26,335 nt of DNA from a virus. The position numbers and the translations under genes are program-made. Below, one piece after another: positions 1,723 to 25,247 of this stretch. Location: the IMG/VR virus record IMGVR_UViG_3300044568_001783, positions 1 to 26,335 of that record. One strand, given 5' to 3'. The notes beneath the pieces were generated by a model. It did not search any database. It had not been told where the DNA came from and saw only the letters and a list, made by a program, of their open reading frames with translations. The number at the start of each line of letters is the position of its first letter. Position 1 is the first letter of the stretch.

Positions 1723-2823
1723 ATGAGCCAAGCGCAATACAACCTATCAACCAAAACAGATTACCTGCATCGCAAGATGTTTCTGGATCCTGCCGGTCCT
1801 GTAACCATTCAACGATTTGAAGAAGTCAAATACAACAAACTGGCCAAGTACGAACAAGAGGCTCGTGGATTCTTTTGGGTGCCAGAAGAAATTTCATTGA
1901 GCAAGGATGCCAATGACTTTAAAGAAGCATCAGAAACTGTCAAGCATATCTTTACTGCCAACCTACTACGACAAACAGCACTAGACAGTTTACAAGGTCG
2001 CGGTCCAGCACAAGTGTTTACTCCTGTAATTAGTATTCCAGAATTAGAAGCACTAATGTACAACTGGAGTTTCTTTGAAACCAACATTCACAGCCGCAGT
2101 TACAGCCACATCATTCGCAACATCTACAACGTGCCCAAGGATGTGTTCAACACCATTCACGACACCAAAGAGATTGTGGACATGGCGTCAAGCGTGGGCA
2201 AGTACTACGATCACTTGCACATGGTCAACTGCGAAAAAGAATTAGAAGTTCCTGTTAAGGATCATGCACACGTCAAGGCCATTTGGATGGCACTCAATGC
2301 CAGTTACGCATTGGAAGCATTCCGCTTCATGGTATCATTTGCCACCAGTTTGGCCATGGTAGAGAATCGTATCTTCATTGGTAACGGCAACATCATTCAG
2401 TTGATCCTGCAGGACGAAATCCTGCACAAGGAATGGACTGCTTGGATTATCAATCAAGTTGTGAAAGAAGATCCGCGCTTTGCTCAAGCCAAACAAGAGT
2501 GTGAAGCCGAAGTGTATCAACTGTATCTAGATGTTATCCGTGAAGAAAAAGAATGGGCAGACTACTTGTTTAACCGAGGTCCAGTGATTGGCCTCAATGC
2601 ACAGATCTTGAAAGACTTTGTGGACTACACAGCAGCCAATGCACTGAAAGAAATTGGCATCAAGTATCAAGAGCCTGCACCACGCTCTACGCCCATTCCA
2701 TGGTTCAACAAGCATGTGGACACCAGCAAGAAACAGGCGGCTTTGCAAGAAACAGAGAGCACTAATTATGTAATTGGGGTAATGGGCGACCAACTCAATT
2801 ATGATGACTTGCCTGACTTATAA
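1723..2823 (+). CDS. nrdB: Class Ia ribonucleoside-diphosphate reductase beta subunit
   Basis: Supplies the di-iron tyrosyl radical for NrdA. At 366 residues it is close to the E. coli length (376). Metal ligands and radical site can be placed against E. coli: D88 (ALDSLQG), E119, H123, radical tyrosine Y127 (HSRSYSHIIRN), E199 (YALEAF), E232 and H235 (DEILH). The C-terminal tail ending in NYDDLPDL resembles the NrdA-binding peptide. One oddity: E119 and H123 are four residues apart (ETNIH), where E. coli has ETIH, so the usual ExxH is ExxxH. AAAGGA at 1707-1712 serves as ribosome binding site. The 3' end overlaps the convergent homing endonuclease gene by 25 bases. Confidence 0.96.
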   Translation: MSQAQYNLSTKTDYLHRKMFLDPAGPVTIQRFEEVKYNKLAKYEQEARGFFWVPEEISLSKDANDFKEASETVKHIFTANLLRQTALDSLQGRGPAQVFTPVISIPELEALMYNWSFFETNIHSRSYSHIIRNIYNVPKDVFNTIHDTKEIVDMASSVGKYYDHLHMVNCEKELEVPVKDHAHVKAIWMALNASYALEAFRFMVSFATSLAMVENRIFIGNGNIIQLILQDEILHKEWTAWIINQVVKEDPRFAQAKQECEAEVYQLYLDVIREEKEWADYLFNRGPVIGLNAQILKDFVDYTAANALKEIGIKYQEPAPRSTPIPWFNKHVDTSKKQAALQETESTNYVIGVMGDQLNYDDLPDL

Positions 2824-3365
2824 CGACAATTGTCAAAGTGGTATCTTTTCATTGCATTTGTCCCGCCTGATAATCCACAATGCAAGCAAGTTAATATAGG
2901 TTTTGGTCCTAATGATTTTCCTTTCATTGGACTAGGAAGACCTTTATTCCAAGCTGTATGCCCTTTGGATTTAGGACTATTTAATCTCGCTGTTCTTACT
3001 GCTTCTATGTGTTTGGGAGATTTCTTTTTGTTTTTATACAGTTCACTAAGATTCTTTTTAAACGCATCTGACCGAACAGCACCGCTTGCACCTTCGCCAC
3101 CATTTGTTCCGTTTTTTAGAATCCCAGTTTGAACATCTTGCCGACCGTACCATTTGATGTACCGGCGCTCAAGGGCAAATGCACCAATCTCGGTTAAATG
3201 TGTTTCTAGAAACACAATTCGAGAATTGTCTTTTGGGGTATGAACTCCTTTGCAATTTACTCTATGTTGCACAAAGGCTCGATTTTCTATACCTTTTCCT
3301 ATATAATAAGGAGTTCCGTCCTTGCGCAAATATGCGTAGACATAAAAATTGTTAGTTAAATACAT
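2799..3365 (-). CDS. GIY-YIG homing endonuclease, free-standing
   Basis: A 188-residue site-specific DNA nuclease of the phage mobile type. The GIY-YIG domain is residues 7-90: FYVYAYL stands in for the GIY strand, YIG is at 21-23, the metal-binding Glu is E66 (ALERRY) and the Asn lies in LKNGTNGGEG. The middle segment GHTAWNKGLPSPMKGKSLG (135-153) looks like a NUMOD3-type DNA-binding helix. The C-terminus carries a CxxC-HxxxC zinc finger (C160, C163, H176, C180). It is on the strand opposite to its neighbours, has a good ribosome binding site (AAAGGAGC) upstream, and its last eight codons lie inside the end of nrdB, a classic insertion point for such mobile genes. Confidence 0.93.
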   Translation of the reverse strand: MYLTNNFYVYAYLRKDGTPYYIGKGIENRAFVQHRVNCKGVHTPKDNSRIVFLETHLTEIGAFALERRYIKWYGRQDVQTGILKNGTNGGEGASGAVRSDAFKKNLSELYKNKKKSPKHIEAVRTARLNSPKSKGHTAWNKGLPSPMKGKSLGPKPILTCLHCGLSGGTNAMKRYHFDNCRYKSGKSS

Positions 3366-4669: not shown

Positions 4670-6750
4670 TGGCCGGCATCTTAACACCATTGCAGTTGAC
4701 AGCGGCTGCAGGACTGTTGGCCAACACAGGTATAAAACCATTCCCCCCTGCATTAATGTCGGCTATTGTGACGTTCAATGCCACTACAGTTATCACCAAT
4801 TTTATTGCCGCAGTTAATTTTTACAAAGCACAGTCTTTTGCTACTCAAAGCACGTTGGAAAGTTTGTTAAACATTGGTAGTACAGTATGTCCTGCATTGG
4901 GAAACAGTATACCTACCAGTCCTGTTGGCACATATCCATATCTAAGAACAGAATATCTTACTACTCCATTCAATGCCACAGATGGCTCAACTTTAGATCC
5001 ATCAGGTTTTAGCAATTTAATTGAACAAACTTGTGCGGCCTATCTTGGCAATGGCGATGTAGGCAGATTTACATTGGGTTTCATGGCGGTGCAAGGTTAC
5101 ATTAATACAACCAACCAATTTATTAATTCTGCCGCCAATGCACAAACGTATCTTGGTCCTACCTTCACTGACATGGATGCATTGGTCACAAACAGCATCA
5201 GTAATTTGAATCCTGACTTTGGCAACTTTGCCACAGACCTGGCCAATCAAGGCAATCTAACCAACCTAAATGACATTCGATTATATGGCACACCTGCTGG
5301 ATTATTGCGTCAGTTGGCTGCAGAAGGCAACATGGTAGGTGGTGTGTTCGGACCTGTACAAACACCATTGCTGGCTACTGGATTGGCAGCTAAAGAAATA
5401 CAAACATTATTAGCAGGATCAACTACAGTTTCAGATAATGAATATTTGCGGTTGCAACAGTTGGCCTATCAAGGCATGATGAATGTTAAAGGCACTGACT
5501 TACAACAAGTGCTGAGTATACTGGAAGTTACTACCCCTAATATCAATAGCATGGCCGACTTGTTGGATCTTACCAAAATATTTCCCAACAGTTACACCAC
5601 ATTGCAAACTCCTACTCCTGTTGGACCGGTACCTGTGTACGGTACAGATGGCAGTGTTAACATGAACTTGGCAGACAATGTGTCAGTATACCTGGCATCG
5701 CCTAACGGATGTGAGGATCTAGGCAAAGTGATTCCTCCTGCACAGGCAGTGTCTAATAAGGCTGTGCAAGTGGCATTTGAGCAAGTCACTAACATTACCA
5801 ATACCACAATACCTGTGTTGGCCAACACAATCAACGCTGTGTCAAGGACGCCTTGGAATATTAATATACCATATCTTGCCAACGATGTGGTAGCAGACGC
5901 CCCGGCAGTGCCCACAGTGGGAAATCTAGCACAATTAAGTCCGGACACTGTGTTTTATCGTGCTCAACAAGATGTGCCGGCTGCTGGGTCAACTGATGCT
6001 CCAACTGGTATAAACATCAATGATACAGACTATTGGCTGCCAACCACATTAGGATGCGGATTAAACACTATGGCTGATTTGCCATTGATTCAAGCACAAG
6101 CCACACCTATTGATCCTTCTGTTGCTGCATATTTTTCTAACATAGTGGCAACTGGTACAGGATCAGATGGTAATATAACTACCTGTGATGTAATTGGTCT
6201 GGCAGTTGATCATGATGATTTTGCTACCCGGCTTACTACATCTACCGCAGCCATTAATGCATTACAGACTGCTGGTAGTCTTGCCACATTGAATACTGCC
6301 TATACTAACTTGCTGGGCGCCGGCGATGATCCCGCGGTGCTAACACAAATTACCAATGCTAACAATGCTATCAGTGCATTGAGTGCCAGTGCTTACGTGA
6401 CCACACTAAACACAGCATGGACCTACATGGCCAATTTGATGAATCTATCAGCCAAGTATACTACTGAAGGCGCAATTGATTATTTTACATTCCCTGCTGG
6501 TGACAAAATTAGCACCATGAGTTTTGTGCAAAATCTTCCACAGTATGGCAATCAGACTGATCCATGCGGTCCGGCTGCCTTTTTGAACAGCGTGGCAGAC
6601 ACAACACTTTTGGCTGGCCAAGCCATGGTAGGTGCTTTGCGCGAAGGTAAAAACAATCAGTGTCTAGGTGAGTCTAGTTTGAACGTTGACACTACTCCCC
6701 TTCCGCGCCTAGCAGTGACTCCTGTGCCTGCTGTGACTCCTGTATATTAA
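4669..6750 (+). CDS. Large probable virion or baseplate protein
   Basis: A 693-residue protein rich in Ala, Asn, Thr, Leu and Gly, with low charge, no signal peptide and no obvious transmembrane helix. Its composition, and its coupling (TAATG) to the PAAR tip gene, fit a baseplate or central-spike component. I do not recognise a named domain. Local internal similarity is visible: two stretches near residues 515-580 share the pattern AINAL.TAGSLATLNTAYTN and AISAL.ASAYVTTLNTAWTY, which looks like a tandem helical repeat of about 40 residues. It ends in a Pro-Val-Thr tail with the repeated unit AVTPV. The stop at 6748-6750 is followed by a promoter region, so it ends its operon. Confidence 0.8.
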   Translation: MAGILTPLQLTAAAGLLANTGIKPFPPALMSAIVTFNATTVITNFIAAVNFYKAQSFATQSTLESLLNIGSTVCPALGNSIPTSPVGTYPYLRTEYLTTPFNATDGSTLDPSGFSNLIEQTCAAYLGNGDVGRFTLGFMAVQGYINTTNQFINSAANAQTYLGPTFTDMDALVTNSISNLNPDFGNFATDLANQGNLTNLNDIRLYGTPAGLLRQLAAEGNMVGGVFGPVQTPLLATGLAAKEIQTLLAGSTTVSDNEYLRLQQLAYQGMMNVKGTDLQQVLSILEVTTPNINSMADLLDLTKIFPNSYTTLQTPTPVGPVPVYGTDGSVNMNLADNVSVYLASPNGCEDLGKVIPPAQAVSNKAVQVAFEQVTNITNTTIPVLANTINAVSRTPWNINIPYLANDVVADAPAVPTVGNLAQLSPDTVFYRAQQDVPAAGSTDAPTGININDTDYWLPTTLGCGLNTMADLPLIQAQATPIDPSVAAYFSNIVATGTGSDGNITTCDVIGLAVDHDDFATRLTTSTAAINALQTAGSLATLNTAYTNLLGAGDDPAVLTQITNANNAISALSASAYVTTLNTAWTYMANLMNLSAKYTTEGAIDYFTFPAGDKISTMSFVQNLPQYGNQTDPCGPAAFLNSVADTTLLAGQAMVGALREGKNNQCLGESSLNVDTTPLPRLAVTPVPAVTPVY

Positions 6751-9658: not shown

Positions 9659-10924
9659 ATGTGGAAACTTGTAATCCCTGCACTAGCAGTGGCTCTAACA
9701 GGATGTGGTGGGGGAGGAGGTGGCACCGCAGGATCGGCAGCAAGTGCCATTGAAGCAGTTGGACTGACTGCCACGGCAATTAGCAGATACAAAAACGAGA
9801 TTGGTTCTACGCAAGTTTTCAATTCTGCTGTAGCTGATCTTAATGGTGATGGGTTAGACGATATTGTGTTATCTGGATGGGCCACAGGCCCGCACATGTC
9901 AGGTAGTAGAGGCGGCTTTGTAAATCTAAAAATCTTCATCCAACAAGATAATGGTAGTCTGACAGATAAAACTGATAGCCTAATAGGTGACGCAAACTCT
10001 ACCATTTGGGGTTCACAACGAATTTTAATTAACGATTATGATAATGATGGTCGTCCGGATATTGCAGTGTTAGGATTTCAAGACGGTCCAACAGCTGGAT
10101 TTTCACCAAGTTCAATTTTCTGGAACAACGGAAACTCGTTTTCAAGATCAGATCTACTAGATAAACTTAGTGCCCATGCCGCATGTTCTGGAGATCTCAA
10201 TGGTGATGGCTTGCCTGAGCTGATTGCTGGTGCCGCCGATAACTGGCAAAATACAATATATTCTAATCTAGGACAAAGACAATTTCTTAACAATCACGAT
10301 ATCACTCAAGAACCCATAAGCTCCGGCGGCACATGTGCAGTATTAAAAGATAATGTGACTGGTAATGTAGCTATTGTTACTACCAATACGCCATTATATC
10401 TTTCCTACAACTCAGTGATAAAAATTTGGGACAAAGATCTAAAGTTTATCAAAACCAATGCCCTAGTAGGTGGCGAAGAATCAGACATTGTTAATGCGAT
10501 TCCAATGGACATCAACAGTGATGGCAAAATTGATTTAATCATCACCGACAACGGCAATTTTAGATTGAACTATGCTAACGGTTACCTATCAGTATTGATC
10601 AACCAAGGAGACTTTGTTTATAAAAACGAAACTGATACCTACCTACCAAATCAAACAAAAAATTCATTTTTTAATTACTACTACACAAAACTCACAGTTG
10701 ATGGATATCAATCAATTTATTTGGATCATAGCGGGACTGTGTCGCTCTGGCAAATCAAGAATGGTAAGATGGTCAAGCATAAAGAAGCATTATTAAATTC
10801 CTTAACAAGTGGATATCAGTACACAAACATATACAAAACAAAGAATGGATACTCGTTATTCCTTGTGAGTGCAACTGAGTATCCGTATGCAACATTTTAT
10901 TATCGTCCTATACCTACAAACTAA
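9659..10924 (+). CDS. Secreted lipoprotein with FG-GAP/VCBS calcium-binding repeats
   Basis: A 421-residue protein with a lipoprotein signal peptide (hydrophobic residues 4-13, lipobox LTGC with C16), six glycines as a tether, then a beta-propeller-like domain. Four Ca-binding DxNxDGxxD-type loops are visible: D60-D68 (DLNGDGLDD), D126-D134 (DYDNDGRPD), D179-E187 (DLNGDGLPE) and D284-D292 (DINSDGKID). Such domains bind proteins or glycans at the cell surface. In a phage this suggests a host-envelope protein made during infection, for instance for superinfection exclusion, or a cargo gene from the host. AACTAGGAGATTCCC provides the ribosome binding site. The codons in the second half are more AT-rich than in the neighbours, which hints at separate origin. 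Confidence 0.88.
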   Translation: MWKLVIPALAVALTGCGGGGGGTAGSAASAIEAVGLTATAISRYKNEIGSTQVFNSAVADLNGDGLDDIVLSGWATGPHMSGSRGGFVNLKIFIQQDNGSLTDKTDSLIGDANSTIWGSQRILINDYDNDGRPDIAVLGFQDGPTAGFSPSSIFWNNGNSFSRSDLLDKLSAHAACSGDLNGDGLPELIAGAADNWQNTIYSNLGQRQFLNNHDITQEPISSGGTCAVLKDNVTGNVAIVTTNTPLYLSYNSVIKIWDKDLKFIKTNALVGGEESDIVNAIPMDINSDGKIDLIITDNGNFRLNYANGYLSVLINQGDFVYKNETDTYLPNQTKNSFFNYYYTKLTVDGYQSIYLDHSGTVSLWQIKNGKMVKHKEALLNSLTSGYQYTNIYKTKNGYSLFLVSATEYPYATFYYRPIPTN

Positions 10925-10926
10925 CT

Positions 10927-11388
10927 ATGAAAAAGATTTACTACGAAAAAAAGGGACGCAGGTATGTGCCTGTGAGTGAGTATGACAGTGAGTACTTGGA
11001 TAGTTTCTCTAAAGGCACACACATTGTGATGTGCTACCCAGGTGGACAAAGCCGACGGTACAATATTGATCCCAACTATGCCGCAATGATTGCGGCAGGG
11101 CGTGTGGCCGAAGATGGCATCTGTGAAGCCATGCGTAAGGCCAGTGAGATGCGGCCACAGCGTACTCCTCTCACTCCGGGGCAAATAAAAGCCTGGAAAA
11201 AATTGGCAAAAGAGTTTGGCGATGACCTATGTCCGTTGACCTATGGCAGTGCTCGAGATCATGCCGAAGCAGGAGTTAAAGCCATGCAAGAAGAAGCAGA
11301 TAAATTGATGACTCATCCTGCTGTACGTGATGCATACGAACAGTTCCAAACTGTGTGCAATCTTGTCAAACAAAAACAAAACACTTGA
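10927..11388 (+). CDS. Conserved T4-like phage protein (MKKIYYEK type)
   Basis: A 153-residue soluble protein. It starts MKKIYYEKKGRRYVPVSEYD, has YNIDPNYAAMIAAGRVAED near residue 45 and RPQRTPLTPGQIKAW near 75, and ends in a helical tail. I recognise this layout from T4-like cyanophage and pelagiphage hypotheticals. It follows the lipoprotein stop by two bases without its own clear ribosome binding site. The last bases contain the -35 of the following promoter. Confidence 0.83.
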   Translation: MKKIYYEKKGRRYVPVSEYDSEYLDSFSKGTHIVMCYPGGQSRRYNIDPNYAAMIAAGRVAEDGICEAMRKASEMRPQRTPLTPGQIKAWKKLAKEFGDDLCPLTYGSARDHAEAGVKAMQEEADKLMTHPAVRDAYEQFQTVCNLVKQKQNT

Positions 11389-11413
11389 CAATCTCGTTGA
11401 GTGTTGTTATAAT
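11385..11413 (+). promoter_or_regulatory. Consensus sigma-70 promoter P3
   Basis: Perfect TTGACA at 11385-11390, 17-base spacer, perfect TATAAT at 11408-11413. It is the best promoter in the window. Transcription would start near 11420 and pass through about 180 bases before the first convincing start codon at 11603. Confidence 0.9.
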
Positions 11414-11419
11414 TACTGT

Positions 11420-11602
11420 GCATGATCAAAGAGATTGGGTAGTCTAATGGTGGGGCGGGGTGAATCGATAACCTGGGCCTGCTCGGACCGTGGCAAGTTA
11501 GACTTAAATCCTGTAGGTTGCGACAAGGACCTCGATCTTAGGATCAAAACCGGGCTGATACCCCGGGAGTATGCCGAGAGGATAAATCTGGAAAGGTTAG
11601 AA
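11420..11602 (+). ncRNA. Candidate structured leader or small RNA behind P3
   Basis: This stretch lies between a perfect promoter and the gene at 11603. It can be read as an open frame, but that reading uses CGG, AGG, GGG and ATA codons avoided by neighbouring genes, so I treat it as non-coding. Visible pairings: AGTCTAA (11441-11447) with TTAGACT (11498-11504) as a seven-pair closing stem; GGGCC (11475-11479) with GGACC (11485-11489) around TGCTC with one mismatch; ATCCT (11508-11512) with AGGAT (11540-11544); CCGGG (11550-11554) with CCCGG (11562-11566). The D-arm-like TAGTCTAATGGTGGGGC is suggestive, but no complete tRNA folds. Riboswitch, attenuator or free small RNA are all possible. Confidence 0.4.
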
Positions 11603-11923
11603 ATGACTGTCAAAATTGAGGGCTCTGCGTTGAGTATCCCTGAGTCACTTGACTCGCTTAATGTAACGCCTTTGGTCATGCACCGTATTTGGTTTCAATT
11701 GCATTCTGTTAAAGAATGGTATGCAGTTATGAAAGAGGCTAGGGTGATGTTTGGAACAAACTGGCGCACTCAAAGCAGAGTAAAACGCAGATTAGAACAC
11801 ATTACATTGTGGGGGATTTCGTTGCAACCAGTGCCTGTATGGTTCGAAGTGCCAGATCAGACCTTTGCCACATGGGTGGCAGTAAAGCATGCGGTGATTG
11901 CCATGCCACCGCCTGGTAAATAA
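11603..11923 (+). CDS. Small conserved phage hypothetical
   Basis: A 106-residue protein from ATG 11603, with GGAAAGG six bases upstream. The core has RIWFQLHSVKEWYAVMKEAR near residue 29 and ends with VPVWFEVPDQTFATWVAVKHA, a strand-helix ending seen in many short T4-like phage proteins. A longer reading from TTG 11435 would include the structured region and is not favoured. The function is unknown. It is the first gene of the P3 transcript and is followed after five bases by a membrane protein gene. Confidence 0.72.
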   Translation: MTVKIEGSALSIPESLDSLNVTPLVMHRIWFQLHSVKEWYAVMKEARVMFGTNWRTQSRVKRRLEHITLWGISLQPVPVWFEVPDQTFATWVAVKHAVIAMPPPGK

Positions 11924-11928
11924 TTTTT

Positions 11929-13431
11929 ATGATATTTGGATTTGCAATTCTCGCCACCGCATTACTCTTAAGCGCCGTAGCAGCCTGGTACTCAGTAGCA
12001 GGTCTTACTGCTATATTCTCAGCGGCCACAATACCCGTGATCATCATGGGCGGTTCATTAGAACTGGGCAAAATTGTTGCCACTGTATGGTTACACAACA
12101 ATTGGAAACGTGCCGGCATTGTGTTCAAGCTGTATTTGATACCGGCCATAGCATTCCTAATGATCTTGACCAGCATGGGTATCTTTGGATATCTTTCAAA
12201 GGCACACTCAGATCAAAGCCTGGTGTCAGGAGACGTTGTCAGCAAGATTGCGATATATGATGAAAAGATCCGAACCGAAAGAGAGAACATAGATGCTAAT
12301 CGCAAAGCACTCAAACAGCTTGATGAATCAGTGGACCAGGTTATGGGTCGCAGTTCGGATGAAAAGGGCGCAGAAAAAGCCGTTGCTATTCGAAGAGCCC
12401 AGCAGAAAGAACGTGGTCGCCTCGCTCAGGACATTGCAGTCTCTCAGAAAAGAATCGCTGGACTCAATGAAGAACGTGCGCCAATTGCCGCTGAGGTTAG
12501 GAAAGTTGAGGCGGAAGTAGGACCGATAAAATACATTGCGGCTTTGTTGTACGGGGACAATCCAGATGCCAATCTATTAGAACGAGCAGTGCGTTGGATG
12601 ATCATAATGATTGTGTTGGTGTTTGATCCACTAGCACTTACACTTATCTTGGCATCCAACAAACAGTTTGAATGGGCACGACAAGGCACAGGTGGATTTA
12701 TACACGACGAACCTAAATATGAGCCTGACAATGGACCGTTAACCGAACAGCAAATAGAACAGATTCAAGACAGTGCCGACCTACCAAAAGATCCACATCC
12801 ACCAGGTTGGATGTTTGATAAGCCTGACCCAATCAATTGCTACAAGTGTGGCACAGAACTAGTAGATGCTACAGGTATAGGGCTTTTCTGTCCAAACAAA
12901 GAGTGCGATGTGTTTGACTCTACTTCTGGTACCACGATTAGTTTTATACAACCTGAAACACCAAGCTCACCAGTGTTTGTGGATATGCCTAACTTTGATC
13001 AAGAGGAAATTGGAGCACTAGATACAAATATTGATGACACTGAAAAAACCGCCATCAAGGCCTGGAAAGCAGCCAATCCAGACGACACTATCAAGGCACA
13101 AAGAGTCAAACTGATCCGTGGGCAAATTGATCGTTTGCCTTGGCAAGAACCGTCAGCAACCACACACGCATTTGGCGCAGAATTTCCTGACCAGCCGTAC
13201 AAAGGTGATACATATTTAAAAGTAGATGTGATTCCCAGTCGATTGTACAAATACAACGGAAAGAGTTGGATACATATTGACAAAGATCTTTCGGACAATT
13301 ACACTTATAACACAGCATACATTGATTATCTCATCGCCAAAGTTGACTCGGGTGAGTATGATCCAGAATTGCTGAGTGACATAGAACAAGAACAAATAGC
13401 CATACGGCTCGACCCCGAAAATAAAACATGA
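11929..13431 (+). CDS. Phage inner-membrane protein with coiled coil and zinc ribbon
   Basis: A 500-residue protein. Predicted helices lie at about 5-30, 34-55 and 68-90, and a fourth at 222-244 (WMIIMIVLVFDPLALTLIL). Between the third and fourth lies a charged coiled coil (about 105-195). After the last helix come a four-cysteine zinc ribbon (C304, C307, C321, C326) and an acidic C-terminal tail. The N-terminal block with GGSLELGKIVATVW and LTSMGIFGYLS resembles large membrane proteins of T4-like cyanophages of unknown role. It may anchor a replication or sensing complex at the host membrane. Its end overlaps clpX by four bases (ATGA), which couples the two. Confidence 0.85.
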   Translation: MIFGFAILATALLLSAVAAWYSVAGLTAIFSAATIPVIIMGGSLELGKIVATVWLHNNWKRAGIVFKLYLIPAIAFLMILTSMGIFGYLSKAHSDQSLVSGDVVSKIAIYDEKIRTERENIDANRKALKQLDESVDQVMGRSSDEKGAEKAVAIRRAQQKERGRLAQDIAVSQKRIAGLNEERAPIAAEVRKVEAEVGPIKYIAALLYGDNPDANLLERAVRWMIIMIVLVFDPLALTLILASNKQFEWARQGTGGFIHDEPKYEPDNGPLTEQQIEQIQDSADLPKDPHPPGWMFDKPDPINCYKCGTELVDATGIGLFCPNKECDVFDSTSGTTISFIQPETPSSPVFVDMPNFDQEEIGALDTNIDDTEKTAIKAWKAANPDDTIKAQRVKLIRGQIDRLPWQEPSATTHAFGAEFPDQPYKGDTYLKVDVIPSRLYKYNGKSWIHIDKDLSDNYTYNTAYIDYLIAKVDSGEYDPELLSDIEQEQIAIRLDPENKT

Positions 13432-14660
13432 AAACAACCGAAAATCTCGATAGCTGTAGTTTTTGTAACAAACACAAAGACACTGTGATCAAACTCATTG
13501 TGGGCGAGGATGTTGCAATATGCAATGAATGTGTGGAATTGTGTGAAACGTTATTGGTTGATGAACCTATAACCAAGCCTGTAGAGCATGTTAGTCTTGA
13601 CCCAAGGTTAATTCAAAAGCATCTTGATCAATATGTTATAGGACAAGATCGAGCCAAGATGGTGCTGGCAGTGGCCATTGCCAATCACTATAAACGCATA
13701 CGCAACCCGGACAAAAATACTGAAATTGAAAAAGTCAACATTCTCATGTTAGGCCCAACTGGTTCAGGTAAAACATTGCTGGCACGATCTGTGGCCAGAT
13801 ATTTAGACGTGCCTTTTGTGATTGCTGATGCTACCAGTTTGACAGAAGCAGGGTATGTAGGCGATGACGTTGAAAGTTTGATTTCTCGATTGTATTCGGC
13901 CTCGGGCAACGATATTGACAAAACGCAACAGGGTATTGTGTTTGTGGACGAAATAGACAAGATCAGTAGACGTTCAGAAAGCCAAAGCATCACACGAGAT
14001 GTATCAGGTGAAGGCGTACAACAAGCCTTGCTCAAGTTGGTAGAAGGTACCAAGTGCAGAATCACCCCCACTGGAGGACGCAAACACCCCAATGGTGAAA
14101 CTGTGGAGATTGACACCACCAATATTTTGTTTATTGCTGGCGGTGCATTTGTGGGCTTGGACAACATTGTGAAGAGTCGTATTCGTGGCACGTCGATTGG
14201 ATTTCAAGCTGATGTGTCAGTAGACCGTCTAGGTGACCTTGATCAAGTAACACCCGACGACCTGGTTAAGTTTGGCATGATTCCAGAGTTTGTGGGACGT
14301 TTTCCAAGTTGGGTTGCACTTAACGAGCTTGCTTTAAAAGATTTGATATCTATCCTGACAGAAATCAAACACAGTTACGTAGACCAGTACAAATGGTTGT
14401 TTGTGCAAGATTCTGTCAAACTGGAATTTGTTCAATCAGCACTAGAACAAGTAGCCAAAAACACTCTAAAAAATAAAACAGGTGCTCGTGGCCTGCATAG
14501 TGAATTAGAACGTGTGTTACTGCCACACATGTTTAACTTGGCACGTTACAAAGAACAAGGAATTGACCAGGTAAAAATCACCGACGACCTGGTAAATACT
14601 CCTATAGAATTAAAGGCACCCAATGAGCAAATTGCGAGGAAGGTCGGTAATAGTCGCTGA
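13428..14660 (+). CDS. clpX: ClpX, ATP-dependent unfoldase
   Basis: Unfolds tagged proteins and feeds them to ClpP. At 410 residues it is a full-length ClpX. An N-terminal zinc-binding domain (C10, C13, C32, C35) is followed by the AAA+ core: Walker A GPTGSGKT at 109-116, pore-1 loop GYVG at 142-145, Walker B VFVDEID at 171-177, RKH loop at 218-220, arginine finger R291 (PEFVGRF) and sensor II R354 (GARG). The ClpP-docking IGF tripeptide is intact at 257-259. No clpP is in the window, so the sequence predicts docking on host ClpP. The gene starts inside the stop of the membrane protein gene and overlaps bS21 by 38 bases in another frame. Confidence 0.97.
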
Positions 14661-14847
14661 CGGCAATGTAGAAAAAGCCCTGCGTAAATTCAAGAAAAAA
14701 ATCCAAGTATCTGGTATTCTTAACGACCTGCGTGATCGTGAATTCTACACCAAGCCTACTACTGCTCGCAAGCTCAAACGCAGTGCTGCCAAAAATCGCT
14801 TGCGTAAACAATTGGCTGAGCAGGCATTACCTAAAAAAATGTACTGA
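14623..14847 (+). CDS. rpsU: Ribosomal protein bS21
   Basis: A 74-residue, very basic protein matching bS21: [20 protein letters not shown] near residue 8 corresponds to the bacterial block VxxxENVExALRxLKKK, followed by FYTKPTTARKLKRSAAKNR. In cells bS21 sits near the anti-Shine-Dalgarno region of 16S rRNA and helps initiation. Phage-encoded bS21 is documented in several large and aquatic phages and is thought to favour phage mRNAs. The start lies inside clpX, with AAAGG at 14612-14616 six bases upstream. The stop overlaps the next start (TGATG). Confidence 0.92.
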   Translation: MSKLRGRSVIVADGNVEKALRKFKKKIQVSGILNDLRDREFYTKPTTARKLKRSAAKNRLRKQLAEQALPKKMY

Positions 14848-15074
14848 TGTACATTGAGTTTCAGTTGCCCTCAGACTTGGTTCGAAACAAACTGAGTGCA
14901 TGGGCAGCAAAATACAATATCAAATACCGTACTAAAGTATTCAAATACACCTTGCGGGTTACATTTGATTCAGACGAATCTTACACACTATTTGCCCTGA
15001 CCTGGGTACCAGACTCAGAACATCCAAGTTGGACAAACTACCGCCTGATAACTGACCTAAATAATAAAATATAA
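14847..15074 (+). CDS. Small conserved phage hypothetical, 75 residues
   Basis: Starts within the bS21 stop (TGATG), so it is coupled to bS21. The protein has alternating strands and a helix (MYIEFQLPSDLVRNKLSAW, then YRTKVFKYTLRVTFDSDESY), compatible with a small alpha/beta fold. It has no motif I can name and no membrane segment. It closes the clpX-rpsU transcript; a new leader begins right after it. Confidence 0.7.
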   Translation: MYIEFQLPSDLVRNKLSAWAAKYNIKYRTKVFKYTLRVTFDSDESYTLFALTWVPDSEHPSWTNYRLITDLNNKI

Positions 15075-15086
15075 GTTTTTTTCGTG

Positions 15087-15092
15087 TATAAT
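15087..15092 (+). promoter_or_regulatory. Possible -10 element upstream of dnaK
   Basis: Perfect TATAAT, extended as TATAATAAATAATG, nine bases ahead of the dnaK leader hairpin. No acceptable -35 lies 16-18 bases upstream, where the sequence is AT-rich. Either an activator or phage-modified polymerase is needed, or dnaK is read from the upstream operon. Confidence 0.4.
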
Positions 15093-15100
15093 AAATAATG

Positions 15101-15151
15101 TTGTAGTGCCAATAGTTGGGCTACAAAACTTAATCTTGCTTAACAAAGGAG
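15101..15151 (+). promoter_or_regulatory. dnaK leader: conserved hairpin plus ROSE-like SD-sequestering element
   Basis: Hairpin I: TTGTAG (15101-15106) pairs with CTACAA (15121-15126), capped by TGCC, loop AATAGTT and GGG, which gives U-G, a bulged G and two C-G pairs. Element II: CTTGCT (15135-15140) can pair with AGGAG (15147-15151) across the loop TAACAA, with the G of UUGCU bulged. This is the same anti-Shine-Dalgarno geometry as in ROSE RNA thermometers. The Shine-Dalgarno sequence sits six bases before the dnaK ATG. The same two elements, in the same order, precede hsp20. The thermometer role is inference. Confidence 0.55.
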
Positions 15152-15157
15152 AACATT

Positions 15158-17047
15158 ATGAGCAAAGTCATCGGTATCGATCTGGGTACCACAAATTCAT
15201 GCGTAGCCGTTATTGAAAACGGAATCCCCCGAGTAATTGAAAATTCTGAAGGTGCTAGAACAACACCAAGTATTGTGGCCTATGCCAACGAAATTCTTGT
15301 GGGTGCCAGCGCCAAACGTCAGGCAATTACCAATCCAAAAAACACAGTGTATGCAGCCAAGCGCCTGATTGGACGCAAGTTCATTGAAGAAGCTGTGCAA
15401 AAAGACATCAACTTGATGCCATACAAAATCATTGCCAACGACAACGGTGATGCCTGGGTTCAAGTCAATGATGAAAAACTAGCACCCCCACAGATTTCGG
15501 CAGAAGTCCTTCGCAAGATGAAAAAGACTGCGGAAGATTATCTGGGGCATGAAGTCACACAAGCAGTGATCACTGTGCCTGCCTACTTCAACGATAGCCA
15601 GCGCCAAGCCACCAAAGATGCAGGTCGCATTGCTGGCCTGGAAGTGTTGCGTATCATCAATGAACCCACTGCCGCTGCCTTGGCATACGGTGTGGACAAA
15701 ACAGACAAACGTGATCGCAAGGTTGCAGTGTATGACCTGGGTGGCGGAACATTTGACGTATCCATCATTGAGTTGGCTGATGTTGACGGTGACAAGCAAA
15801 TTGAAGTGCTGAGCACCAACGGTGACACATTCCTGGGTGGTGAAGACTTTGACCAGCGCATCATGGACTTCTTGGTCGATGAGTTCGAGAAAGACACCGG
15901 GGTAGACTTGACCAAAGATGTGTTGGCATTGCAACGTCTCAAAGAGGCTGCAGAAAAGGCCAAGATCGAATTGTCAAGTTCAGCACAAACAGATGTGAAC
16001 CTGCCCTACATCACAGCAGATGCTACAGGTCCCAAGCACTTGAATGTCAAACTGTCACGCAGTAAACTGGAGCAACTGGTCGAAGAGCTGATCAAGCGTT
16101 CAATTGAGCCTTGTAAAACAGCCATGAAAGATGCTGGTGTAAGTGCCAGCGACATTGACGAAGTTATTCTTGTTGGTGGTATGACACGCATGCCCAAGGT
16201 GCAAGAAGAAGTTGAACGGTTGTTCGGACGAGCACCACGCCGCGATGTCAATCCTGATGAAGCAGTGGCAGTGGGTGCCGCTGTACAAGGTGCTGTGTTG
16301 AGTGGCGAGCGCAAAGACGTGTTGTTGTTGGATGTCACACCATTGAGCCTGGGCATTGAAACCATGGGCGGTGTGTTTACCAAGTTGATTCAAAAGAACA
16401 CCACTATCCCGACCAAGGCCAGCCAGTCGTTCAGCACTGCTGAAGACAATCAACCTGCTGTGACCATCAAAGTGGCACAGGGAGAAAGAGAATTGTTTAA
16501 ATTCAACAAAACTCTGGGCGAGTTCAACCTTGATGGCATTGCACCTGCGCCACGTGGAACACCACAGATTGAAGTCACCTTTGACATTGACGCCAATGGT
16601 ATCATGAAAATCAGTGCCCGAGACAAAGGCACAGGCAAAGAAAACAAAATCACCATCAAGAGTAATTCAGGATTGAGTGAAGCTGAGATTCAACAAATGG
16701 TTCAGGATGCTGAGGACAATGCAGAATCAGACAAAAAAGCACGTGAACTGATTGAAGCACGTAACAGTGCAGAATCGGCGTTGAATGTGTTCCAAGTTGA
16801 TTTCAACAAGTACAAAGATGCAGTCACAGACGAAGAACGTACACAAGCTGAAACAGCATTGAAAGCAGTGGAAGATGCAATCGCAGGCGATGACGTAACA
16901 GTGATCCAAGAAAGTATCCCCAAACTGTACGAAGCAATTGCGCCCATTACCAAGGCCAAGACTGATGCTGAAGAAGCTGAAAAGAAACAATCACAAGACC
17001 CTAATGTGGTTGACGCAGAAGTTAAAGAGTCAGTAGAGACTGTTTAA
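15158..17047 (+). CDS. dnaK: DnaK (Hsp70) chaperone
   Basis: A full-length, 629-residue Hsp70. The ATPase domain has [14 protein letters not shown] at 5-18, catalytic K68 (AAKRLIGR), phosphate loop DLGGGTFD at 193-200 with T198, and [10 protein letters not shown] near 340. The allosteric linker VLLLDV is at 388-393, followed by the substrate-binding domain and a helical lid. Sequence blocks such as [37 protein letters not shown] and [13 protein letters not shown]-type segments follow the betaproteobacterial pattern, indicating capture from a Burkholderiales-like host. The C-terminus ends ESVETV and lacks a bacterial EEVKDKK-like tail. No dnaJ or grpE is nearby, so host co-chaperones would be needed. 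Confidence 0.98.
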
Positions 17048-17055
17048 CTAACCCA

Positions 17056-17109
17056 GTCGGGTGCCAGAAATGGGCCCGACAACATGTCATAACTTGCTTA
17101 ATAAAGGAG
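17056..17109 (+). promoter_or_regulatory. hsp20 leader: second copy of the hairpin plus ROSE-like element
   Basis: GTCGGG (17056-17061) pairs with CCCGAC (17075-17080), capped by TGCC, loop AGAAAT and GGG, exactly the architecture of the dnaK leader but with a different lower stem. CTTGCT (17093-17098), loop TAATAA and AGGAG (17105-17109) follow. The Shine-Dalgarno sequence is seven bases before the hsp20 ATG. No T-run follows the hairpin, so it is not a normal terminator of dnaK. Confidence 0.55.
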
Positions 17110-17116
17110 AAAACAA

Positions 17117-17569
17117 ATGACAAAAACACTAACCCTTCGCGGCTTCGACATTCCATCAATTCACAAATTTGGTATCGGTTTCGATAACATGCTTGATGAA
17201 TTTATGCGTGTGAGTGCTCAACAATCCACTTCAAACTATCCGCCTTATAACATTGTACAAATCAGTGAAGATGAGTACATGATTAGTCTTGCTGTGGCTG
17301 GATTTGGACTGGACAATCTTTCAGTTACCAAGGACAAAAAGTTCTTGATAATCGAAGGCAAAGAGTACGATTCTGACAGCGAAAAGATTGTGCCAAACTA
17401 CCTGCACAAAGGCATCAGCAACAGAGATTTCCGACGTGAATTCCAACTTGCTGACCATGTGGAAATCAGCAATGCTCATCTTGAACTTGGTATTCTGAGC
17501 GTTTACCTAAAGCGTGAAGTGCCGGAAGACGCCAAGCCAAAGACTATTGCGATCACCTACACTTCCTAA
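17117..17569 (+). CDS. hsp20: Small heat-shock protein, Hsp20/IbpA family
   Basis: A 150-residue holdase. The alpha-crystallin domain spans about residues 43-145: YPPYNIVQISEDEYMISLAVAGF, the LSVTKDKKFLIIEGKE strands, RDFRREFQLADHVEI, and the typical A-x-L-x-x-G-x-L block as AHLELGILSVYL. It binds unfolding proteins and passes them to DnaK, the gene just upstream. Small heat-shock proteins are frequent in T4-like aquatic phages; pairing with DnaK is not. It carries the same leader as dnaK. Confidence 0.96.
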   Translation: MTKTLTLRGFDIPSIHKFGIGFDNMLDEFMRVSAQQSTSNYPPYNIVQISEDEYMISLAVAGFGLDNLSVTKDKKFLIIEGKEYDSDSEKIVPNYLHKGISNRDFRREFQLADHVEISNAHLELGILSVYLKREVPEDAKPKTIAITYTS

Positions 17570-17575
17570 TATAAT
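17547..17575 (+). promoter_or_regulatory. Probable promoter for clpS
   Basis: TTGCGA at 17547-17552, 17-base spacer, TATAAT at 17570-17575, overlapping the end of hsp20. The -35 matches the consensus at four of six positions. The transcript would begin a few bases before the 17586 hairpin. Confidence 0.5.
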
Positions 17576-17585
17576 AGTGTAAATA

Positions 17586-17611
17586 CAGTGGCAGCAATCC
17601 CGCTGCCACTG
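17586..17611 (+). other. Ten-pair perfect hairpin between hsp20 and clpS
   Basis: CAGTGGCAGC (17586-17595), loop AATCCC, GCTGCCACTG (17602-17611). It is GC-rich and perfect, but followed by ATTGTATAG and not a T-run. It lies at the very 5' end of the predicted clpS transcript, so it may stabilise that RNA; alternatively it is a weak terminator for hsp20. Confidence 0.55.
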
Positions 17612-17637
17612 ATTGTATAGCAAAGCAAGGAATAGAA

Positions 17638-17946
17638 ATGGCACAGAGCGACACCCGCACACGAATCAAACCATCAGAGGCCGTAAAAGAGCCACCCATG
17701 TTTCGCGTGGTTTACTTGAACGACAATGCAACCTCTATGGAGTTTGTGGTTGAAAGTTTGGTTGAGTATTTTGAATACACCCACGAAACCGCAAAACAAA
17801 TCACCATCGACATTCACGAAGAAGGCTCTGCTTGTGTGGCAGTGTTGCCTTACGAAATTGCCGAACAAAAAGGTGTCGAAGTCACTGTGAGTGCTAGATC
17901 ACAAAACTATCCGCTTCAGATCAAACTGGAACCTGAAACAGTTTAA
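17638..17946 (+). CDS. clpS: ClpS, N-degron adaptor
   Basis: A 102-residue adaptor that delivers proteins with destabilising N-terminal residues to ClpA-ClpP. The pocket residues align with E. coli ClpS at identical spacing: N28 and D29 (N34, D35), M34 (M40) and H60 (H66). The second acidic residue of the NDD motif is Asn (N30). An unstructured N-terminus of about 20 residues, needed to engage ClpA, is present. No clpA is in the window; a host ClpA, or conceivably the phage ClpX, would be the partner. The ribosome binding site is AAGGAA. The 3' end overlaps the convergent phosphoesterase by four bases. Confidence 0.95.
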   Translation: MAQSDTRTRIKPSEAVKEPPMFRVVYLNDNATSMEFVVESLVEYFEYTHETAKQITIDIHEEGSACVAVLPYEIAEQKGVEVTVSARSQNYPLQIKLEPETV

Positions 17947-23070: not shown

Positions 23071-24111
23071 ATGACTACACTTACACATCCGCGTTTTGGT
23101 TTTTGTTGCAAATGGCTCAATGACCCCGAAGAATGCGGGGGCATGAAAGTCAATGCTGTGGACCGTGATATAAACGGAAGATCAACTACCATGCGCTGGC
23201 TTCGTGAGCATGCTGCCGAAGCCGATCAGCGGCAGTGGGACATCATGAACCATAACGCTGCCGCGGCCCTAAAAATGGTTGAGCGTGTGGGCGCAATGGA
23301 GCCCGAACGCAGAATGGTGCGACTGGGTTCAGAAATGTTACAGGGCTACACAGAACCCTCCTGGATAGATTGGTGGCAACGACGTGAAATTCAAGATCAC
23401 TGCGAACGCATATTCGCGCCGGTTGGTGATGCTGCTCGGCGTCTTGGCGTACGGCTATCCTTCCATCCAGGGCAATTTTGTGTACTGGCAAGCGAATCGG
23501 ATGAGATCGTTGAACGATCCATACTGGAATTTGAGTATCACGCTGATATGGCGCGGTGGATGGGTTACGGCGCTGACTGGCACGATCATGGATTTAAAAT
23601 CAACGTGCATCTCTCGGGCAAAGGTGGCCCTGCTAAGTTTTTGCGCACTCTAGGCAGACTAAGTACAGAAGCCCGAAACTTAATCACAATAGAAAATGAT
23701 GAACTTACAAATGGAATTGATGTTACCTTGGCCGTGGCTGATCATGTGGCTCTTGTGTTGGATATCCATCACCACTGGATCAACAGCGGAGAATACATTA
23801 CCCCTACGGATCCACGTGCGCAACGGGTTATTGAGTCTTGGCGTGGTGTTCGTCCTGCACTACATTACTCAGTTAGTCGTGAAGACTGCCTTGTTGACCA
23901 CTCTCGCACAGTAAAACCTGACTTGAGTGCGCTGTTGGCACAGGGTTACAAAAAGCAAAAACTTCGAGCACATTCTGACTTCATGTGGAATGATGCTGTA
24001 AATAAATGGGCTGTTACCTTTGCAAATCAATGGGACATTCAAGTAGAAGCTAAAGGTAAAAACTTGGCTACCGAAATGGTCCATGCACAATGGCAACAAC
24101 TGAAATCATAA
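23071..24111 (+). CDS. uvdE: UV-damage endonuclease, UvdE family
   Basis: Nicks DNA 5' of UV photoproducts, starting an alternative excision repair. At 346 residues it has the TIM-barrel fold of the family. Metal-site motifs are in order: RFGFCCKW near the start, RLSFHPGQFCVL at 128-139 (H132), ITIENDE (E208), LDIHHHW (D231 and the histidines), HYSVSRED (H265), AHSDFMW (H301) and VEAKGK (E326). All expected ligands are present. It is an unusual repair gene for a phage but fits one exposed to sunlight in surface water. It has its own promoter and seems leaderless. The 3' end overlaps the radical SAM gene by 22 bases. Confidence 0.94.
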   Translation: MTTLTHPRFGFCCKWLNDPEECGGMKVNAVDRDINGRSTTMRWLREHAAEADQRQWDIMNHNAAAALKMVERVGAMEPERRMVRLGSEMLQGYTEPSWIDWWQRREIQDHCERIFAPVGDAARRLGVRLSFHPGQFCVLASESDEIVERSILEFEYHADMARWMGYGADWHDHGFKINVHLSGKGGPAKFLRTLGRLSTEARNLITIENDELTNGIDVTLAVADHVALVLDIHHHWINSGEYITPTDPRAQRVIESWRGVRPALHYSVSREDCLVDHSRTVKPDLSALLAQGYKKQKLRAHSDFMWNDAVNKWAVTFANQWDIQVEAKGKNLATEMVHAQWQQLKS

Positions 24112-25247
24112 ATTTTAACAAAAATCCAAATTGGTACTGTGCTAACATTCATGCCGGATTATATTTAACACTAGATTTTAAAGGTAATTTACAGGTCGCT
24201 CCGTGTGTGTTGTTTAATAATCCACAAACAGTCAATGAGGAAACACTCACTGATCAGTCAATTTTTAATAATTCGTTTCTTGAAGAAATAAGACAAAATC
24301 ACAAACAAGACAAACAATTGTCCGGCACATGTAAAAGATGCGATCCTGTGTTGTGCAACGGAACAGGGCCAGCCAACAGGTCATCAGACAATTTGGCTTA
24401 TGTAAAAGATCAATTATTATATGATCAACCAGGACCAAAACTTCTTAGCCTACAAATTAGCACTTTATGTAACTTGGCTTGCACCACGTGTGGACCAATG
24501 TTTAGTTCAAAATGGCGATCATTGGGAGGGAAATTTCCAAGAGTGGTATCGTCTCTAAGAGAAGATAAAATTCGATCTGCACTAAGAAATATAAATTTTC
24601 AAAACTTAGAGACTGTACATATCCTAGGTGGAGAACCGTTTTTGGACAGTATACACGAGGTGGTGCTTGAAGAATTAATGCGATATGGAAAAAATATTAC
24701 CATACGTTATGACACCAATGCCACACAGTTTCCATCATCATACACTATAAAATTGTGGAAAATGTTTAAACTAGTAAAAATTAAATTCAGCATAGATGGC
24801 ATTGGTGAATCATTTGAATACTTGCGTTGGCCTGCAAAATGGAAATCAGTTGAACAAAATATGTTAAACATGGTACAACTACTTCCTAGCAATGTGATGT
24901 TTGGACTGCGGCCAGCCATTGGATTTTTAAATCTGCACCTTGTTAAGAACATCAGAGATTGGTATGAAAAAAATATACCTACCAATCGTGAAGGCGATCC
25001 AACTGAATTTGAATACAATGGAGTATACGGTGTTTTTTCTGGTAATTTTATTACATCTGAGTTTAAACAAGAATTAAATCAAACATACGATTCTGCTGAT
25101 CCCATACATCAAGTATTACCCAGAGTAATTAATACAACTCCACAAAATCTTGTACAAATAAAAAAACAGCTTGAAAAAATTGATGAACTACGAGGCACAG
25201 ATTACAAAATTGGATTGCCTCACTTGGTAAAGTATCTTAATGTTTAA
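24090..25247 (+). CDS. Radical SAM protein with extra cysteine cluster
   Basis: A 385-residue iron-sulfur enzyme. The SAM-binding CxxxCxxC is at C127, C131, C134 (CNLACTTC), followed by ILGGEPF at 178-184 and FSIDG. An N-terminal group of cysteines (C39, C81, C84, C89) could bind a second cluster, as in twitch/SPASM-type proteins, but here it lies before the core and not after it. This arrangement is known to me from T4-like aquatic phages, where the function is undetermined. It is more AT-rich than uvdE and starts within the end of that gene. Confidence 0.9.
   Translation: MATTEIINFNKNPNWYCANIHAGLYLTLDFKGNLQVAPCVLFNNPQTVNEETLTDQSIFNNSFLEEIRQNHKQDKQLSGTCKRCDPVLCNGTGPANRSSDNLAYVKDQLLYDQPGPKLLSLQISTLCNLACTTCGPMFSSKWRSLGGKFPRVVSSLREDKIRSALRNINFQNLETVHILGGEPFLDSIHEVVLEELMRYGKNITIRYDTNATQFPSSYTIKLWKMFKLVKIKFSIDGIGESFEYLRWPAKWKSVEQNMLNMVQLLPSNVMFGLRPAIGFLNLHLVKNIRDWYEKNIPTNREGDPTEFEYNGVYGVFSGNFITSEFKQELNQTYDSADPIHQVLPRVINTTPQNLVQIKKQLEKIDELRGTDYKIGLPHLVKYLNV

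Follow-up and report, generated by a model that had tools for sequence, protein, structure and literature searches.

A structured mRNA domain around the start site of a small-protein gene in huge freshwater phages and its probable role in translational control

The rpsO (S15) operator is an mRNA structure that embraces both the Shine-Dalgarno sequence (SD) and the AUG (PMC10931766). In the leader of the maturation gene of phage MS2, a long-range fold shuts the ribosome-binding site (RBS) of this first gene, and the nascent form is accessible to ribosomes (PMC6071253, PMC6733600). Among dsDNA phages, the leader of T4 gene 32 contains a pseudoknot that serves autogenous translational control, which a 2010 review considered to be possibly the sole viral case of that structure in translational autoregulation (PMC3014915). 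In type I toxin mRNAs (e.g., hok and aapA), the 5' end pairs with a segment far along the mRNA, which yields a translationally inert form (PMC6733600). The locus analyzed here, from a huge freshwater phage, contains an RNA domain of about 260 nt that, as judged from the comparison of relatives, encloses its own RBS and probably acts in cis to control its own translation. No published match for this RNA architecture was found in the open-access literature searched.

The locus, its promoter and the linked gene

The window, i.e., the entire analyzed stretch of 26,335 nt (a 26-kb fragment, virus record IMGVR_UViG_3300044568_001783), carries genes for ribonucleotide reductase, DNA ligase, ClpX and a DnaK-like protein, and relatives of its genes are present on phage contigs of up to 364 kb. 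The ORF that directly follows nrdB, on the other strand (2799–3365, minus strand), starts with what by eye is a GIY-YIG-like motif (YVYAYLRKDGTPYYIGKG) and probably encodes a homing endonuclease. The 421-aa protein encoded at 9659–10924 (plus strand, as are all features below) contains FG-GAP repeats (Pfam FG-GAP_3, E=1.6e-19) and a signal that resembles a lipobox (LTGCGGGGGG). A protein quality-control block at 13428–17946 includes a ClpX-like ATPase with a zinc finger along with DnaK-like, Hsp20-like and ClpS-like ORFs, and the clpX/clpS cluster of phage SCTP-2 occupies the same relative place. Read by eye, the product of 23071–24111 resembles a UV-damage endonuclease of the UvdE type and that of 24090–25247 a radical-SAM protein (CNLACTTC).

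A search of viral contigs with the neighboring proteins identified many relatives of the leader, with 70–99% DNA identity. In all, the relatives come from about 60 other contigs of huge freshwater phages, the largest of which measures 364 kb. A covariance model was built from 50 leaders, and searches with this model and with the 106-aa protein family described below supplied the 73 distinct sequences used in the extended analysis, the most divergent relative, L169, not being among them. Covariation was also assessed with a tree-aware scan (own implementation: G-test, average-product correction, null simulated along the tree). The Rfam and tRNA searches proposed in a first-pass annotation of the bare sequence both came back empty: Rfam 15 gives no match at the gathering cut-off in the window or in 6 relatives, a permissive Rfam scan of 11360–11640 gives one chance match only, on the other strand, and ARAGORN detects 0 tRNA or tmRNA genes. 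The RNA element is outside every Rfam 15 family.

The region is preceded by a sigma-70 promoter, TTGACA-17-TATAAT with an extended -10 TG (11385–11413). The first-pass annotation had called this promoter perfect and the only one with a full consensus; indeed, it matches at 12/12 positions and is the sole full match in the 4 kb scanned, and the 12/12 match is retained in 59 of the 73 distinct relatives, with 11/12 in 8 more. The distance from the end of the -10 element to a conserved GCATG (11420) is 6 or 8 nt among the relatives, which places the predicted transcription start at the first conserved base of the RNA itself, 11420. On the preferred reading, the region is the 5' part of a phage mRNA transcribed by the host sigma-70 polymerase. 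No terminator was seen after the leader and no strong minus-strand promoter was seen nearby over the element. An upstream ORF starting at the 5' AUG was considered and rejected: two relatives, L238 (GCAUC) and L252 (GCAUU), lose this AUG, which is therefore not a conserved start codon.

The putative regulated gene (11603–11923), which occurs 1:1 with the RNA, encodes a basic 106-aa protein without a Pfam family. All 93 of 93 loci with this gene contain one model match each, usually 23–34 nt 5' of the start codon. An independent RNA-pattern search identified 53 loci, 52 of which contain the 106-aa gene; in the remaining one, only 120 nt of sequence follow the match. Of 11 large records, 8 encode exactly one RNA and one 106-aa gene and 3 neither. 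The gene for a membrane protein that follows in the window shows no such linkage: the RNA is missing from loci that have this gene but not the 106-aa gene, and L058 carries the RNA and the 106-aa gene 1.4 kb away from it. This co-occurrence, together with the absence of the RNA beside a lone membrane-protein gene, indicates that the element belongs to the 106-aa gene. The first-pass suggestion of a riboswitch-like leader of both genes is thus not supported for the membrane protein; for the small gene, its cis-regulatory part stands, given that the RNA is always directly upstream of this gene and pairs with its codons, and the ligand-sensing part is taken up below. Covarying helices in a 5' leader that is always located upstream of one gene family are what is expected of a structured cis-regulatory leader. 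The membrane-protein gene has distant relatives in phages XacN1 and SCTP-2; in the latter, it is followed by clpX and clpS as in the window, and the preceding gene encodes a topoisomerase subunit rather than the 106-aa protein. In L048, the reading frame of the 106-aa gene extends to 204 aa.

Covarying helices from the transcript 5' end into the codons

In the leader, 92.7% of the cells of the predicted pairs are paired, compared to 26–48% when the strands are slid; double changes are observed in 19 of the 31 pairs, and the covariation score is reached by 0 of 500 shuffles. Arm A (11437–11512) consists of P1 (11437–11439/11510–11512), P2 (11441–11447/11498–11504) and P3 (about 11453–11459/11478–11484), with tree-aware support for 11438-11511 (E=0.003) and 11444-11501 (E=0.023). 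It is followed by two hairpins, P4 (GAUC-UUAG-GAUC, 11534–11545), with 4 of 5 pairs doubly changed, and P5 (CCGGG-loop-CCCGG, 11550–11566), with 97% of cells paired and 2 pairs doubly changed. Two of these helices, P2 and P5, are the closing stem and the CCGGG hairpin of the first-pass annotation, which had named covariation of the stems as the check; it is found in both (e.g., 11444-11501 is C-G in 37 sequences, U-A in 33 and U-G in 2). The non-coding status that it assigned to the leader is likewise borne out by the comparison of relatives: just 5 of the 73 keep the ATG frame open as far back as the equivalent of 11435, and the leader lengths fall into all three frames, so that the ORF at 11435 was rejected as coding.

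The same annotation had envisaged about 180 bases of structured RNA, which is correct with respect to the structure but not the extent, as the domain is larger and reaches about codon 27–29. Single-sequence folding of the leader is uninformative: on its own, the 183-nt leader of the window has no exceptional stability (z = -0.57), and leader-only folding of 12 listed sequences gives a mean z of -0.35. For the same 12 sequences, the leader plus 29 codons gives a mean MFE z of -2.3, i.e., unusual stability appears only with the codons included. When the alignment of leader and codons was submitted to RNAalifold without hints, it returned P0, P2, P3, PA, P4, P7 and P6, with 41 pairs, 32 of these with double changes, and 96.7% of the cells paired. 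The entire domain extends from the predicted start to codon 27 (11420–11681).

The outermost helix, P0, joins the transcript 5' end (GCAUGAUCAAAG, 11420–11431) to codons 23–27 (CUUUGGUCAUGC, 11670–11681). In this helix, 852 of 876 cells are paired (slid controls, 27–46%), 7 of the 12 pairs are doubly changed, and P0 ranks first among 35,778 possible 12-bp helices (97.3%, against a mean of 38% and a 99.9th percentile of 68%). It is present in the MFE structures of all 12 sequences listed (10–12 pairs); in L238, GCAUCACCUGUG and CACAGGUGAUGC form 12/12 pairs from different codons, and in the divergent L169, 11/12 pairs can be read by eye. Taken singly, no pair of P0 or P7 is significant by the tree-aware scan (best E=0.85), and the evidence for both is at the level of the helix. 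In L004, a 48-nt in-frame deletion in the 106-aa gene (around 5680–5800) removes the PA and P0 partners and leaves the leader intact; this could be a natural deletion or an assembly fault.

Leader-only RNAalifold had proposed a different closing stem, between the 5' GCAUG and UAUGC in the leader (11570–11574), which was rejected, both strands being essentially invariant. Given that the covarying partner of the 5' end in the extended alignment is codons 23–27, this stem appears to be either an effect of truncation or an alternative pairing. The invariant leader GUAUGC (11569–11574) resembles GUCAUGC of codons 25–27 and could take its place opposite the 5' GCAUG; no covariation was seen for this possible alternative state.

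Within P0, arm B ties the leader to the start site and to the codons. The PA helix pairs GCGA (11520–11523) with codon 18 (UCG) and the first base of codon 19 (11654–11657). It is canonical at all four pairs in 73/73 sequences (292/292 cells), with compensatory changes in 3 of 4 pairs, although codon 18 varies (UCG, UCU, UCA, CCU, UUU, UUG) and PA spans Ser, Pro, Phe and Leu codons. The combinations are GAGA/UCUC (35), GCGA/UCGC (29), GUGA/UCGC (3), GAGG/CCUC (2), GAAA/UUUC (2), GUGA/UCAC (1) and GCGA/UUGC (1), such that the replacements of Ser by Pro and of Ser by Phe in codon 18 are matched by changes in the leader. In the tree-aware scan, 11521-11656, the latter being the third base of codon 18, scores as well as the best pair of the core (E=0.003), and on a tree built from codons 25 onward only, this pair undergoes 12 changes of state. 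The PB strand (11524–11529) pairs just 5' of the SD (about 11586–11591) in a register that varies between groups, with the co-varying types CACUG/CAGUG, CAAGGA/UCU and CAAAGG/CCU. The SD (AAAGG) and the start codon (11592–11608) form a 3-bp hairpin (11595–11597/11606–11608) with the AUG (11603–11605) in the loop; AGG[A/U] and [U/A]CU flank the AUG, 219/219 cells are paired, and 11597-11606 is A-U in 54 sequences and U-A in 19 (tree-aware E=0.07). Codons 3–17 form a coding hairpin (11609–11653) composed of P7 (11609–11613/11649–11653) and P6 (11619–11622/11638–11641), in which most pairs are formed in 71–73 of the 73 sequences and most are doubly changed. The supported helices P0, PA, PB, P7 and the SD hairpin are mutually nested; the first reading of PA/PB as a pseudoknot was dropped once the partner of P0 had been located.

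The excess of synonymous conservation is 0.43 in codons 2–24 compared to 0.16 in codons 25–106 (p=0.0003), Leu19 is CUU in 73/73 sequences, and some synonymous constraint extends as far as codon 29. Thus, comparative sequence analysis establishes a structured domain around the SD and AUG with its main helices, linkage in cis to the 106-aa gene, and RNA-structure constraint on the codons.

The 106-aa protein and possible modes of control

The 106-aa protein has a pI of 9.9 in the window (mean pI 9.5; most members are basic) and shows no significant match in Pfam, PDB sequences or Foldseek. A family of unknown function, phrog_5720, is a weak match (8/32 members, best E=3e-4); a pattern-based scan of bacterial genomes detected no relative, and cultured phages yielded no convincing one. 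The AlphaFold2 (AF2) model (pLDDT 79) has no significant fold match, and no recognizable RNA-binding fold was found. The first ~20 residues are modeled with low confidence and are probably disordered, and the remainder adopts a b-a-a-b-a-b arrangement with good confidence. It is this probably disordered N-terminus that the RNA domain encodes, as would fit a constraint imposed on the protein by the RNA. A conserved block, NWRxQxHVKRRLE, would suit a nucleic-acid-binding protein, without proving any binding.

These features suggest the following model. With P0 joining the 5' end to codons 23–27, arm A (P1–P3) and arm B (PA with codons 18–19, PB beside the SD, the SD/AUG hairpin and P7/P6 over codons 3–17) would lie inside a closed fold that may limit access of the 30S subunit and so lower initiation. 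Translation would then depend on whether the domain is open, i.e., nascent or held open by translating ribosomes, or closed; ribosomes on codons 1–27 would keep it open, and a factor would set the balance. With no more than 3 bp in the SD hairpin, strong repression is not guaranteed. The most likely trigger, with a chance somewhat short of even, is feedback by the basic 106-aa protein binding to the fold, the best candidate because of the analogy with S4, S15 (PMC10931766) and T4 gp32 (PMC3014915). A more elaborate version, which we consider tentatively, is a new class of bistable phage mRNA switch in which the 12-bp P0 locks the SD and AUG, the disordered N-terminus evolves largely for the RNA fold, and the 106-aa protein is a phage-specific operator-binding repressor.

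The main rival to own-product feedback, with perhaps half its chance, is timing by folding kinetics alone in the style of the MS2 maturation leader, whereby nascent RNA would be translatable until P0 closes, giving a short ligand-free burst. This fits the geometry, as P0 requires both the 5' end and codons 23–27 and so closes only after about 262 nt, as well as the unusual stability of the whole domain rather than of the leader alone, and the invariant GUAUGC could be a transient partner of the 5' GCAUG. However, ribosomes on the mRNA of a DNA phage can trail RNA polymerase and hold the domain open, and kinetics alone do not explain the long conserved unpaired core.

In a metabolite- or ion-sensing riboswitch, the conserved core (CCGUGGCA, GUAGGUUGMGAC and GUAUGCC) would be the aptamer and the ligand would open or close the RBS; in favor of this possibility, the unpaired blocks that surround the multi-helix core are highly conserved, and the core is coupled directly to the RBS. 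Riboswitch aptamers are usually found 5' of several unrelated genes and rarely need codons such as 18–27. Here, by contrast, the element accompanies a single gene family, the function of which is unknown, in a single phage group and has no Rfam match; instead of several genes of one pathway (a usual although not obligatory feature), 52 of the 53 pattern matches have the 106-aa gene only. A ligand of this kind therefore appears unlikely as the trigger, and another factor takes up what remains of the probability.

A stable trans-acting small RNA merely placed upstream of the gene, a form of the abundant small RNA that the first-pass annotation had also suggested, would fit the strong conserved promoter and the compact conserved core but is highly improbable given the compensated pairing with codons 18–27 (conserved pairings reach codon 27), the lack of a terminator after the leader, and the fact that the RNA is never found without the 106-aa gene where enough sequence is present. 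Equally improbable is the notion that only the leader is structured and that the coupling to codons is an artifact of codon bias, common descent or misalignment: the relatives do share kinship and some helix columns are invariant, but compensation is seen at replacement as well as silent positions and amounts to 12 changes when traced on an independent tree, slid controls fall from 97% to 27–46%, and a structure-blind scan puts P0 first.

Comparison with known systems

The domain offers a model, open to direct testing, of the way in which a huge phage might set the dosage of a gene that is read from a strong host-type promoter. The compensatory changes extend into the codons and include amino-acid replacements that preserve base pairs, an example of RNA structure shaping protein sequence, and much of an element of this kind can escape a search confined to intergenic sequence.

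As in the alpha-operon (S4) and rpsO (S15) operators of E. coli, which regulate initiation by product feedback, the mRNA structure includes the RBS. Those operators, however, are pseudoknots bound by ribosomal proteins, whereas here P0, PA, PB, P7 and the SD hairpin are nested, which does not fit an RBS pseudoknot of the S4/S15 type; the protein is a phage orphan, and the transcript 5' end pairs with codons 23–27. The hok and aapA mRNAs share with this element a 5' end paired with a distant segment, but they encode small toxic peptides and are accompanied by antisense RNA; the 106-aa product with a predicted folded core and the lack of a strong minus-strand promoter led us to reject a type I toxin-antitoxin system. 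The MS2 maturation leader is likewise a phage RNA with a long-range fold around the RBS, a likeness in architecture; in MS2, the RNA is the genome and the fold opens transiently while the genome is being synthesized, whereas here it is the mRNA of a DNA phage, the 5' end of which pairs with the coding region. In T4 gene 32, the pseudoknot is small, lies 67 nt 5' of the AUG and nucleates protein binding, without being closed over the start codon; the domain described here is much larger, encloses the RBS and is present in a single copy in many huge freshwater phages. Thus, the element would work like the RBS-enclosing operators or the MS2 leader, yet belongs to neither the S4/S15 nor the MS2 leader type.
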